Below, in pieces: positions 1-4,069 of a stretch of 64,000 nt of DNA. The notes under the pieces were generated by a model. It did not search any database. It had not been told where the DNA came from and saw only the letters and a program-made list of their open reading frames with translations. The first letter of the stretch is position 1; each line of letters begins with the position of its first letter. The position numbers and the translations under genes are program-made. Source of the DNA: Laspinema palackyanum D2c (lineage in GTDB: Bacteria; Cyanobacteriota; Cyanobacteriia; Cyanobacteriales; Laspinemataceae); contig NZ_JAMXFD010000008.1 in NCBI RefSeq assembly GCF_025370875.1, positions 136,862 to 200,861 of the forward strand. The letters are read 5' to 3'.

Positions 1-294
1 CTTCAGGATTGTTTGCTGAGACTTCAGGATTGTTTGCTGAGACTTCAGGATTGTTTGCTGAGACTTCAGGATTGTTTTCTGACGCTTCAGGATTGTTTTC
101 TGACGCTTCAGGATTGTTTGCTGATACTTCAGAATTGTTTTCTGACGCTTCAGGATTGTTTGCTAAGACTTCAGGATTGTTTGCTAAGACTTCCGGATTG
201 TTTGCTAAGACTTCAGGATTGTTTGCTAAGACTTCCGGATTGTTTTCTGACGCTTCAGGATTGTTTGCTGATACTTCAGGATTGTTTGCTGACG
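1..294 (-). repeat. 21-bp tandem repeat, about 14 copies, encoding heptapeptides
   Basis: The sequence repeats every 21 bases from the window edge to about 294. Read on the minus strand each unit encodes seven residues, SANNPEV or the variants SENNPEA, LANNPEV. The array continues beyond the window. It forms an extended Asn/Pro/Glu-rich stalk in the surface protein. Third-position and whole-codon variants are interspersed, so the copies are not all identical. Confidence 0.9.
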
Positions 295-1636
295 GTTCTG
301 CGGATTCTTCTCCTTCAATTTGTGGATTCGGTGTTACTGCACTGACTACTAGAGTAAAAATATTACTAACGGAGAGACTTCCATCGGATGCGGTGATTTT
401 AATATTGAGGCTGCCGACATGAGTCTCGATGGGGGTTCCGCTAAAGGTGCGAGTTGTGGCATCAAAGAGTAACCAAGGGGGTAAATCGCTGCCATCTTCT
501 AAAGTGGCGGAATAAGTGAGGGGATTGCCATCGGGGTCGTTGAAGGTATTTGCTGGAAGGGTAAAGTTAAATAGAGTGGATACAGTGGCGGTTAAATCGC
601 TGATTTCATTCACAACCACGGGAGGATTATTTGCACGGTCATTATCAGTGATTTTCGCCGTGACGGAATTAATCTGAATTCCATTGTAATTGGGGTCTGT
701 AGAAAGGGCCGTATGAGTAATCGTTCCGGTATGATTTCCTTCTACAATATTATCATCAACAGCCACAATTTCTACGGTTTGAGGCTTATCCCAATTCTCT
801 GGAGTGAATATCAGAGAATTAACCCCAGTTGTGGTTTGATGATCGGGATTAATCCTAATCGTTACTTCGGCAGTGGGTCGGTTGGTTAAAACCACTGTAT
901 AGGTATCTGTTGCCCCTCCTTCCGTGACATTTGTGCTGCCGTCGGACTCGGTGATAAGGGCACTATACCAAACCAAGCTAAAATTATCAAGAGCCAATCC
1001 GTGGTCATTATCCTTATCGTTTACTTCTACCCACCGAATCCAAAGCGTTTGATTATTGTCCCAAGTTAAATCATGGATTGTCCCCCCCAGATTGGCAACC
1101 AAACCATTCGTATTACCATTGACTGGACCTCCTGGTTCCATAGCAATAGGGGAAGTAAAATCAAAATTTTCCCCCAGTTTATTCCAAGTTTGAACCGTAT
1201 CAAATGTGGCTCCCAATCCATACTCTAATCTCATGGTTTGCGGCAGGGTTGGCGGCGTGACACTGCCCCCATTTCGCCATTGTTCGCCATCAAATTTTAG
1301 GGTTATATTCTTGAGGGTTGAACCTGTGGTATTTGTGGCGGCCAAAGCAATCCATCCGGCAATTTTGCCAGTGTCTGGACTGCCAAAATAAGCATGACCT
1401 GAACCCAATCCCCCCAAAGCGCGATCGGACGCACCATTTGATCCATAACTATAAAAACTTCCTTTATTACTTGAGCCATGATTCGCATCATAAGTTGGAA
1501 TTGGAATGCCCGGTGCTGGTTGACGAAACAGATACCATCCAGGTAAGGTAGAATGATTGGCCCAGAGATTATCGGTTCCATTTGTTGCCAGAGAATCGAA
1601 ATCTTGAAAGTAAGCACCCTGAAATGCGATCGCCAT
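1..1636 (-). CDS. Partial large surface protein: Calx-beta-like and cadherin-like domains plus heptapeptide repeats
   Basis: The gene starts at 1636 with GGAGG seven bases upstream and stays open to the window edge, giving at least 545 codons; the C-terminus is missing. Residues 1-220 open with FQGAYFQDFDSLATNG, an extracellular beta-sandwich style of N-terminus. Residues about 222-320 contain VTEGGATDTYTVVLTNRP and a later VDDNIVEG, typical of Calx-beta-like modules. Residues about 337-430 read as a cadherin/dystroglycan-type Ig domain (NDPDGNPLTYSATL, then FSGTP). From about residue 445 the protein becomes tandem heptapeptides of the form [SL][AE]NNPE[VA]. No signal peptide is obvious, so type I secretion with a C-terminal signal outside the window is my inference. 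The function is probably adhesion or matrix structure, but no binding partner can be named. Confidence 0.75.
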   Translation of the reverse strand, partial: MAIAFQGAYFQDFDSLATNGTDNLWANHSTLPGWYLFRQPAPGIPIPTYDANHGSSNKGSFYSYGSNGASDRALGGLGSGHAYFGSPDTGKIAGWIALAATNTTGSTLKNITLKFDGEQWRNGGSVTPPTLPQTMRLEYGLGATFDTVQTWNKLGENFDFTSPIAMEPGGPVNGNTNGLVANLGGTIHDLTWDNNQTLWIRWVEVNDKDNDHGLALDNFSLVWYSALITESDGSTNVTEGGATDTYTVVLTNRPTAEVTIRINPDHQTTTGVNSLIFTPENWDKPQTVEIVAVDDNIVEGNHTGTITHTALSTDPNYNGIQINSVTAKITDNDRANNPPVVVNEISDLTATVSTLFNFTLPANTFNDPDGNPLTYSATLEDGSDLPPWLLFDATTRTFSGTPIETHVGSLNIKITASDGSLSVSNIFTLVVSAVTPNPQIEGEESAEPSANNPEVSANNPEASENNPEVLANNPEVLANNPEVLANNPEVLANNPEASENNSEVSANNPEASENNPEASENNPEVSANNPEVSANNPEVSANNPE

Positions 1637-2006
1637 AACAATTCCTCCGAATGACTCCTGATATTAACAAAGTTTTTTGGATGACCTAACTAAGGTATAA
1701 ATAACCCCAAATAGGCTGACTAAGTTTGACTGTCCCGATTCATGCAAATCTTGAGATTGCCCCCTCAATGATAGAGGGCTTTAATGAATTCACCCTACGA
1801 CAGATAGGGGAAATGAGCAAGTCCTGACTGAACTGGGTACCGCTATCGTCTGGTTAACTGGATCCAGCCCGGGAAACGATTAACTCTCAAAGCGATACTC
1901 TGCCTATTTTAATAGTACAGGAATCCTGATACCAACCTCTCCCCAGATATTGCAGATAGGGAACCGTCGTTTTCCTGGATGATAAGAGTAGGAACTCTGG
2001 TTTTTG
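1637..2006. other. Intergenic region, no gene recognised
   Basis: This 370-bp stretch lies between the start of the surface-protein gene and the end of the dual-OB gene; both are transcribed leftward. I see no credible reading frame. A short inverted repeat, CCCTC-N7-GAGGG, lies at 1762-1778. It may hold the terminator of the operon to the right and the promoter of the surface protein, but neither is clear. Confidence 0.4.
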
Positions 2007-2690
2007 TCAGAAGTTCCCAGAGAGTTCAATGACACCGGCGATTAATTTCCAACAGAGAGGTTCACCTTCCCCGTCTGACGGTGCCCAAGGGATACTGAGA
2101 CTGACGGTGACGAGGCAATTAGGGGAGGGTTGATGTCCAGACTCTAATTTTTTGACGAATACTGGATCGGTAATCTTCGCTTTTTCTAGTTTGCATCCCT
2201 TGGCGGTTTCTATTGTTCCTCGCCAGTTAGTTTGTCCTTTGTAATTCGTATGCTTATGAATGTAAAACTTGTTAGTTTTTACCAGTTGGAGGGTGCGACG
2301 GTGATGAAAGGGGCGGTTTTTTAGGTCGGAAGGATTAACGGATTTCTCGGAATTGTGGAGGATATATTTAAAGTTTAAACATTGTCTGCGGATATCATCG
2401 AGAGTGGCTTTCCCTCGATATTTCCATTGTCCGGGTAGAATGGAAAGGTTTTCACATTCAAAGCCGAAATCTGGGCCGGTATCATCGAGGGGGATTTCTA
2501 AAATATCCAGTAATTCCGGTTCTCTGCCTTCTAGGAGGCGAACATAGATGGGAACTCTGCCATCTTGGGGGTATAGCCGATCGCAGATGGGACGAATCCA
2601 TCTGCCAGTATCGTAGTCAATTCCTGCGATACAGCGTTCCTGGTGTTTCCACGAGTTCGCTAAACAGATAATTCTCCTCACAGATGACAT
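2007..2690 (-). CDS. Putative dual OB-fold (DuOB-like) protein, third gene of a DUF488 operon
   Basis: The protein is about 227 residues from MSSVRRII at 2690; an upstream ATG at 2708 would add six residues and overlap the preceding gene by 31 bases. The N-terminus RIICLANSWKHQERCIAG...GRWIRPI matches the pattern I associate with the dual OB-containing domain seen in small proteins next to DUF488 genes: R-C-x-A-G, then G-x-W-I-R-P. The rest is beta-rich, with LVTVSLSIPW near the C-terminus. OB folds usually bind nucleic acid, so nucleic-acid or nucleotide binding is my inference. It overlaps the preceding DUF488 gene by 13 bases at this start, so translation is probably coupled. The family assignment is from memory of the motif and should be checked by profile search. 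Confidence 0.65.
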   Translation of the reverse strand: MSSVRRIICLANSWKHQERCIAGIDYDTGRWIRPICDRLYPQDGRVPIYVRLLEGREPELLDILEIPLDDTGPDFGFECENLSILPGQWKYRGKATLDDIRRQCLNFKYILHNSEKSVNPSDLKNRPFHHRRTLQLVKTNKFYIHKHTNYKGQTNWRGTIETAKGCKLEKAKITDPVFVKKLESGHQPSPNCLVTVSLSIPWAPSDGEGEPLCWKLIAGVIELSGNF

Positions 2691-3136
2691 ATTTTCACGT
2701 TCCCCCATTTTCCGTTGAGGTATTCTGCCACGAGGCGGCGATGACAGTGATGCGGTTTGGCTTCACTACAGAGTAAACAGGCTCCATCTAGCTGTTCTGG
2801 CGTCACTTTTTTCTCGATTTTCCGAGTCTCAATCAGGTGCAAGAATTTCTGCTCATAAATGGACCAATCCCCTTTATTCTTTTTATACTCATCCAGAATG
2901 TCTTTGGTGGGGGCTAAGTCTAAAATATGGAGATACTCGATATCAGCAAGGCTTTTCAAAAAGTATTTCAGGTCGTTTTTTTTTGCAAATCCAGCTAATT
3001 GGGAGATGTTATTTAAGCGAGTATCGATAATCCGTTTAACCCCTGCTTGTTTGAGGGTAGTAAAAAAGGTTTCCGCACTTTTTTGTGTAAAACCAATGGT
3101 AAATAAATTCACGTTATTCCCGTTACTTTTCATCAT
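2678..3136 (-). CDS. DUF488 family protein (second copy)
   Basis: About 152 residues from the ATG at 3136 (MMKSNGNNVNLFTIGF), which overlaps the stop of the preceding gene by 14 bases; a longer frame to 3163 exists but would precede the conserved start. DUF488 hallmarks are the N-terminal LFTIGFTQKSAETFF, the RIIDTRLNNIS strand-loop, and the C-terminal LLCSEAKPHHCHRRLVA with the family's C-x-E...C-H-R motif. DUF488 proteins have a small alpha/beta fold of unknown biochemical activity; the conserved Cys/His/Arg cluster looks like an active or ligand site. It is sandwiched between another DUF488 gene and the dual-OB gene with overlaps on both sides, so the three products are likely made in fixed ratio. 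Confidence 0.8.
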   Translation of the reverse strand: MMKSNGNNVNLFTIGFTQKSAETFFTTLKQAGVKRIIDTRLNNISQLAGFAKKNDLKYFLKSLADIEYLHILDLAPTKDILDEYKKNKGDWSIYEQKFLHLIETRKIEKKVTPEQLDGACLLCSEAKPHHCHRRLVAEYLNGKWGNVKICHL

Positions 3137-3773
3137 CTTCGGTCGTTTTTTCGATGTAGGCAATTTGGTCTCCTTGCAATTGATAGGCTGTGCTTACACA
3201 GTCTTCTCGGGTTGGCAAGTCGTGATTAGGTTCAGCAAATAAGGAGAGTTGAATGGGTTTATTGTTGGGATTATTTTGATATTCACTTAATCCCTGTTTT
3301 ACGAGCATTCTCTCTTCTAAGTCGTGATGGGATTCCAATTGGCCGGTTTTCAAAATGTGGTTAATTTCAAGATGGTGCTGTCGCAGATGTTGACAGACTA
3401 GGATGGCGCGATGGCAGGTCAGGGGGTCCTGTTCGGCACACATGAGGGAAATTTTATGGGTGTTTAACCCGGTGAGGACTCGATTGAGTCCAGTTTGAAA
3501 GTCTGGGGTGGCGGCAATTTTTTCATAAACGGCTTTTCCCTCAATATAACAGTCCGGGTTGCTGGGTCTTGCACCTAATTCTTGGCCTAGAAAAACATAT
3601 TTAATGCCTGCTTGTTCTAAGGCTTCTTTTAAGAGGGTGCGGTTAAAGTGGGGTAAGTATCGACTGTAGGGATGGGAACGAACATCTGCTAAGGCATCGA
3701 TTTGATGCTGTTGGAGGAGGTGGATAAATGTGTCTATTTCGTGATTAGAATGGCCGATGGTGAATAAGTTCAT
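3123..3773 (-). CDS. DUF488 family protein (first copy)
   Basis: About 216 residues. I place the start at 3773, where AGGAG lies some ten bases upstream and the protein begins with the canonical MNLFTIGHSNHEIDTF; the longer frame to 3854 adds 27 unconserved residues. Other DUF488 marks are ADVRSHPYSRYLPHFN, which is the D-V-R-x-x-P motif, and LMCAEQDPLTCHR, the C-A-E...C-H-R motif. Beyond residue 150 it carries an extra C-terminal segment (about 65 residues, charged, ending TTEDDEK) that the second copy lacks. It is the promoter-proximal gene of the operon. The molecular activity of the family is not known to me. Confidence 0.85.
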   Translation of the reverse strand: MNLFTIGHSNHEIDTFIHLLQQHQIDALADVRSHPYSRYLPHFNRTLLKEALEQAGIKYVFLGQELGARPSNPDCYIEGKAVYEKIAATPDFQTGLNRVLTGLNTHKISLMCAEQDPLTCHRAILVCQHLRQHHLEINHILKTGQLESHHDLEERMLVKQGLSEYQNNPNNKPIQLSLFAEPNHDLPTREDCVSTAYQLQGDQIAYIEKTTEDDEK

Positions 3774-3876
3774 CAAGATAACTCCTAGGATTAACGAGGT
3801 CAGAAAGGGTTGATTATCCTCATGTTTTCTTTGGGTCTTTGAGTTGAAACTCAAGGGCGGTTTCTGTTTCTGAGTT

Positions 3877-3905
3877 AATCAAAAATTTGGTTAAAATTTT
3901 TGATT
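3877..3905 (-). promoter_or_regulatory. 11-bp perfect inverted repeat in the leader of the DUF488 operon
   Basis: AATCAAAAATT at 3877-3887 is repeated exactly in inverted form at 3895-3905 with a 7-base loop. It lies just downstream of the predicted -10 box and about 100 bases before the first start codon. Such AT-rich dyads are typical operators, though it could also form an RNA hairpin. Confidence 0.5.
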
Positions 3906-3919
3906 GATTTTAGCCTTAA

Positions 3920-3949
3920 ACTTTAGCATAGAACTATTCTTTTTGTCAA
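3920..3949 (-). promoter_or_regulatory. Predicted sigma-70-type promoter of the DUF488 operon
   Basis: On the minus strand a perfect -35 box TTGACA (3944-3949) is followed after 18 bases by TAAAGT (3920-3925). It faces the DUF488 genes. Spacing and the perfect -35 make it plausible; the -10 matches consensus at four of six positions. Confidence 0.45.
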
Positions 3950-4069
3950 TCTCTTCTAACTCCGACAACTCAAAGGGACGGAAACGAGGGCTGCCCTAGG
4001 GCTAGGTTCAGTATGATTTACACCGGCCTATAGCCAATCAGGGAGGGGAATTGGGGGGTTGTACTGGAG

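Follow-up and report, generated by a model that had tools for sequence, protein, structure and literature searches.

A DUF488–DUF488–DuOB gene trio of the PDC-M45 type in Laspinema palackyanum, with a putative sliding-clamp-binding motif

The window analysed here is a stretch of 64,000 nucleotides from the genome of Laspinema palackyanum D2c (contig NZ_JAMXFD010000008.1, positions 136,862 to 200,861). It contains three genes on the minus strand that encode two DUF488 proteins, DUF488-1 (B) and DUF488-2 (C), followed by a DuOB protein (A) (Table 1). A preliminary description made from the sequence had these genes overlapping end to start, and the open reading frame calls confirm this arrangement. 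B and C overlap by 11 bp, while C and A overlap by 13 or 31 bp depending on whether the DuOB protein starts at the ATG at 2690 or at the alternative ATG at 2708.

Table 1. Features of the trio and its site; positions are those of the window.
Feature	Position	Strand	Basis
DUF488-1 (B; PDC-M45B), 216 aa	3123..3773	-	Pfam DUF488 1.8e-24; PADLOC PDC-M45B 1.9e-73
DUF488-2 (C; PDC-M45C), 151 aa	2678..3133	-	Pfam DUF488 2.3e-23; PADLOC PDC-M45C 4.8e-72
DuOB protein (A; PDC-M45A), 227 aa	2007..2690	-	Pfam DuOB 8.2e-44; PADLOC PDC-M45A 1.9e-28
Putative active-site loop of B, C112-x-E114...C120-H121-R122	3408..3440	-	All five named residues invariant in 48/48 cyanobacterial B
Putative active-site loop of C, C122-S-E124...C130-H-R132	2738..2770	-	C122, E124, C130, H131, R132 invariant in 21 diverse sequences
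QLSLF, B residues 175-179, putative beta-sliding-clamp (DnaN) binding motif	3237..3251	-	Conservation, low pLDDT, published consensus
Candidate single promoter TTGACA-18-TAAAGT	3920..3949	-	10/12 consensus match, upstream of trio
Stretch absent from the trio site of G387, another Laspinema genome (empty site)	1783..4056	.	blastn against the window; about 150 bp instead

The two DUF488 copies score 87.2 and 83.6 bits against a Pfam cut-off of 22.2, and C also falls above the cut-off in the DUF488-N3a ‘active’ subclade (2.6e-8). A match of the third protein to an OB-type profile had been set beforehand as one of two points on which the preliminary description would fall or stand, and it scores 150.6 bits with Pfam DuOB against a cut-off of 27, over its full length. 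These are the sole DuOB and the sole two DUF488 matches in the host genome, and the nearest named relatives of the window DuOB are from Laspinema palackyanum (94% identity) and Oscillatoria sp. HE19RPO (93%). A search against NCBIfam gave no match. As for the single shared promoter, the total number of promoter-like matches in the region is at chance level, but the upstream element in Table 1 is found again ahead of the trio in another Laspinema genome (locus L074). The stretch between this site and the start of B holds an inverted repeat that is almost perfect (3835-3858; coding strand TTGAGTTTCAACTCAA) and is a possible operator. Short tandem repeats that read as (SGLFAET)-like peptides occur at the start of the window (3-422), antisense to a 545-aa open reading frame.

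The trio is not new to defence catalogues, a point absent from the preliminary description. A, B and C specifically match PDC-M45A, PDC-M45B and PDC-M45C of the 2023 PADLOC library, in which PDC-M45 is defined as one DuOB (A) and two DUF488 proteins (B and C), and the genes are adjacent. The PADLOC label PDC stands for phage defence candidate, that is, an unproven system (PMC11514479). As the library already holds this exact three-gene unit, the Laspinema locus, which is real and conserved, belongs to a candidate system that has been catalogued before. The PADLOC entry consists of models without a mechanism, and a literature search found no experimental work on the PDC-M45 trio. To our knowledge, what is new here is a clamp motif in B and the exchange of B for an mSLOG-DUF4326 protein, which lies outside the PADLOC models.

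The DuOB gene is present in 44 of 386 cyanobacterial genomes, with a patchy distribution. The trio is widespread rather than confined to one strain, which was the second point set beforehand. All 47 complete cyanobacterial loci are co-directional, 43 with the order B-C-A and four with A-B-C; three loci (L044, L046 and L080) were left out of this count as at least one gene is missing or a stub. At 36 of the 43 B-C-A loci the B and C genes touch or overlap, and in one contig they are naturally fused to encode a single 377-aa protein (L194:7326-8459). The three proteins diverge in step, with r of 0.72-0.80 between their distances, a level reached by none of 2000 permutations, although shared species history contributes to this value. 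The shared direction, the fusion and the correlated divergence lend strong support to the suggestion of a defined three-part unit that joins an enzyme-like fold to a nucleic-acid-binding one. Within Laspinema the trio occupies one shared chromosomal site in five genomes, including that of the window. Using L096 and L080 as blastn queries against the window, we found the site empty in genome G387 (Table 1), while genome G391 retains only a 230-bp remnant of the DuOB 3' end (L080:9817-10046). The trio is undergoing loss within the genus at the same site. Loss is mostly of the whole trio, and partial remnants also exist.

Both DUF488 copies keep the C-x-E...C-H-R cluster, as had been noted, and its residues are invariant among close relatives (Table 1). 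In the AlphaFold2 (AF2) model of B, C112 is the last residue of a predicted strand (108-112), which would place it where the catalytic cysteine of phosphatase folds sits. In structure comparison this model comes nearest to PTP/DSP phosphatases and to SAM-dependent methylases, diphthine synthase among them, with Z up to 8.7 at an rmsd of 3.8 over 130 aligned residues; these matches are weak, with Z about 8 and no Foldseek E below 0.001. They agree with membership of the rhodanese-phosphatase superfamily, short of proof. Burroughs and Aravind in 2023 reportedly placed a RapZ-C/DUF488/DUF4326 clade in this superfamily and predicted DNA-end processing for DUF488 and DUF4326. The trio resembles that clade in the fold neighbours of B, in a cysteine predicted to end a core strand and in the swapping of DUF488 and DUF4326 within one system. 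The DNA-end chemistry of the clade is itself a prediction, and we know of no link between the clade and the sliding clamp.

The AF2 model of the DuOB protein (pLDDT 91) has two OB-like halves whose structural neighbours are the OB folds of HIN DNA sensors, telomere end-binding proteins, RPA and SSB, a likeness that supports nucleic-acid binding. Sequence searches with the trio proteins returned no usable solved structure. Nucleotide sensing, a role raised in the preliminary description, is not supported for the trio, as an mSLOG domain occurs only in the DUF4326 variant described below.

The C-terminal region of B had been described as an extra acidic tail; B does have about 90 extra residues and the last of them are acidic, but the conserved parts are QLSLF and a C-terminal helix, neither of which that description mentions. 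The AF2 model of B (mean pLDDT 88) comprises a core of residues 1 to about 159, a disordered linker and a confident helix at 189-204, and residues 172-179 form its only internal stretch with pLDDT below 50. After dereplication, the QLSLF columns show a conservation of 98, 98, 93, 100 and 100%, while the gap-rich flanks reach about 20-25%. Of 48 cyanobacterial B proteins 45 carry QL[SD]LF, which occurs in none of 49 A, 47 C or 720 neighbouring proteins, the last of which gave the background frequency. Beyond the motif, residues 189-206 (window about 3156-3209) hold a second conserved element, AYxxQGxxIAY, predicted to be helical. This helix may be where C or A docks.

QL[S/D]LF is a published beta-clamp-binding consensus, and the QLSLF form is typical of PolC (PMC3919608). 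In the host genome DnaE (DNA polymerase III alpha) carries QLNLF in its C-terminal region; a Y-family polymerase, wanted as a second control for the motif, was not found there and DnaE was taken. B shares with sliding-clamp clients such as DnaE/PolC, Pol IV, MutS and transposases a linear motif of the QL[S/D]LF type in a flexible, disordered segment, as expected of a clamp client. Unlike these clients B is not a polymerase or repair protein, and its binding to the clamp is read from the motif. On these grounds we think it probable that B docks on the DnaN sliding clamp through QLSLF. Divergent B proteins carry variants of the motif, namely QLNLF in Rhodothermus, QLHLF in the linker of the B-C fusion, QMTLF in L195 and QLDLL in L186, while proteobacterial A-B-C types keep just its acidic-hydrophobic end (for example SDMF or EDLF). 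No consistent clamp motif was found in A, C or the DUF4326 variant, where matches are sporadic and chance-like. As the motif is reduced in the proteobacterial A-B-C types and inconsistent in the DUF4326 variant, there are versions of the system that do not depend on clamp binding.

Relatives outside Cyanobacteria reveal more of the range of the trio. There are 38 relatives of C in IMG/VR viral contigs, many of which are apparently prophage or island DNA; nearly all have DuOB as a neighbour, together with either B or a DUF4326 protein but never both. Many proteobacterial copies have B replaced by an mSLOG-DUF4326 protein (for example L102:9170-9664, L202:11689-12282 and L168-L192). The mSLOG domain is clear in the Escherichia coli copy and weak in that of Klebsiella, and the DUF4326 partner matched no PADLOC model. 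At their C-terminal end these partners share a conserved acidic stretch, for example LNSWDDGE. With the window DuOB as query no plasmid matched, while a divergent DuOB from L051 found 23 plasmids; a tblastn search with DuOB found no relatives in 50,697 phage records. In E. coli a small integrative element at ffs (L202:9605-15784), with a recombinase on one side and an integrase on the other, has DuOB-DUF488-DUF4326 as its main cargo, and some other copies adjoin prophage terminase genes. In one viral contig (L197:8461-10011) a DUF488 pair adjoins a family-B DNA polymerase gene, and DuOB was not detected there by the profile used.

Several of these relatives lie among defence genes. In two viral-collection contigs the trio sits between PglX and PglZ of BREX (L162:6566-8444 and L163:6617-8438), resembling in this the accessory systems embedded in BREX operons; the trio is not a BREX component, however, and stands alone in Cyanobacteria. 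Elsewhere it adjoins capP-type proteases or regulators (L161, L166), CBASS in Agrobacterium, type III CRISPR in Allochromatium and, as the DUF4326 variant, a NotI restriction-modification pair in Klebsiella. On a Rhodothermus plasmid (L127:5983-7774) it is directly upstream of cas1-cas2-cas6, the CRISPR adaptation genes with cas6. This Rhodothermus copy has a divergent DUF488-2 and a weak DuOB (6.8e-11), and is an early-diverging version.

The cyanobacterial neighbourhoods give a different picture. We found no excess of defence genes near the cyanobacterial trios: 86 PADLOC families matched near the trios against 138 near matched displaced controls, a comparison that is coarse because these are counts of matching families rather than proteins, with the best 25 listed. 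On this comparison, defence-island enrichment in Cyanobacteria is not seen. In the window itself there were no other convincing defence genes and no defence island; none of its 29 proteins matched PglZ or BrxC, and a BREX core is adjacent only at L162 and L163. A location in defence islands, which the preliminary description named as a check, is not supported in Cyanobacteria. The role in conflict that it suggested fares better outside Cyanobacteria, where BREX, CBASS, CRISPR and prophage contexts favour it, than in the cyanobacterial neighbourhoods, which do not. With no cyanobacterial enrichment, the defence reading draws on the relatives outside Cyanobacteria, where individual loci were seen among defence genes without a statistical control.

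Taking these observations together, we give a probability of roughly 0.5 to the reading that the trio is a three-protein module of the PDC-M45 type, most likely an anti-phage or anti-mobile-element system, in which B, C and DuOB act at the clamp. In the best model, two cysteine enzymes with the rhodanese/phosphatase fold are tethered to the clamp and would work with a DNA-binding subunit on the ends of replicating, probably viral, DNA. We infer strongly that QLSLF of B would dock the module on DnaN and so bring it to the primer-template junctions of replicating DNA. DuOB may then hold exposed single-stranded or end DNA, B and C, probably as a heterodimer, could act on DNA ends or on nucleotides by group transfer of the phosphate or sulfur type, and replicating invader DNA would be blocked or marked. 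Among these parts we lean towards an anti-phage purpose, while action on DNA ends is more tentative, at somewhat below even odds. The fullest version, in which PDC-M45 is clamp-tethered immunity whose cysteine-enzyme pair works at replication forks, where it chemically modifies or caps the 3' ends of DNA (or nucleotides) while a HIN-like dual-OB protein recognises DNA, is doubtful. We know of no replisome-coupled, DNA-end-modifying mode of defence to date.

A clamp motif is also what repair and replication proteins carry, the OB folds of DuOB resemble single-stranded DNA binders, and the cyanobacterial copies show no defence enrichment, all of which would suit a host accessory of DNA repair or replication restart. 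Here clamp-bound DUF488 would act at the fork to clean up 3' ends or nucleotides that are damaged and DuOB would bind single-stranded DNA, with no part in defence. We consider such a housekeeping role unlikely, since the trio is patchy (44/386 cyanobacterial genomes), is lost at the same site within the genus Laspinema, is found on prophages, on plasmids and in an integrase island, and occurs inside BREX operons. Those BREX copies also argue against a helper of mobile elements, which would serve plasmid or prophage establishment or anti-restriction by modifying the DNA ends of the element itself. While plasmid and prophage copies that adjoin terminase or replication genes would fit a helper, the chromosomal copies that four other Laspinema genomes have at one common site and the lack of any DuOB relative among the 50,697 phage records do not, and we regard it as quite improbable.

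SLOG is a nucleotide-ligand-binding fold, and the ability of an mSLOG-DUF4326 protein to fill the third slot is in keeping with a toxin-antitoxin-like or abortive module where nucleotides would be damaged by one DUF488, with its partner proteins as restraints or sensors. We find this very improbable: both DUF488 proteins have the full set of putative catalytic residues, there is no small labile antitoxin, and the trio tends to go whole, despite partial remnants.

For a defence module at the sliding clamp, the reading we prefer, the near-invariant motif in B provides a specific and directly testable hypothesis for DUF488, a family that is widespread and of unknown function. The interchange of DUF488-1 and mSLOG-DUF4326 would widen the current detection of the system beyond the PADLOC models. 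If the hypothesis is true, the trio would be a form of immunity in which the replication clamp serves to locate DNA that is being replicated.
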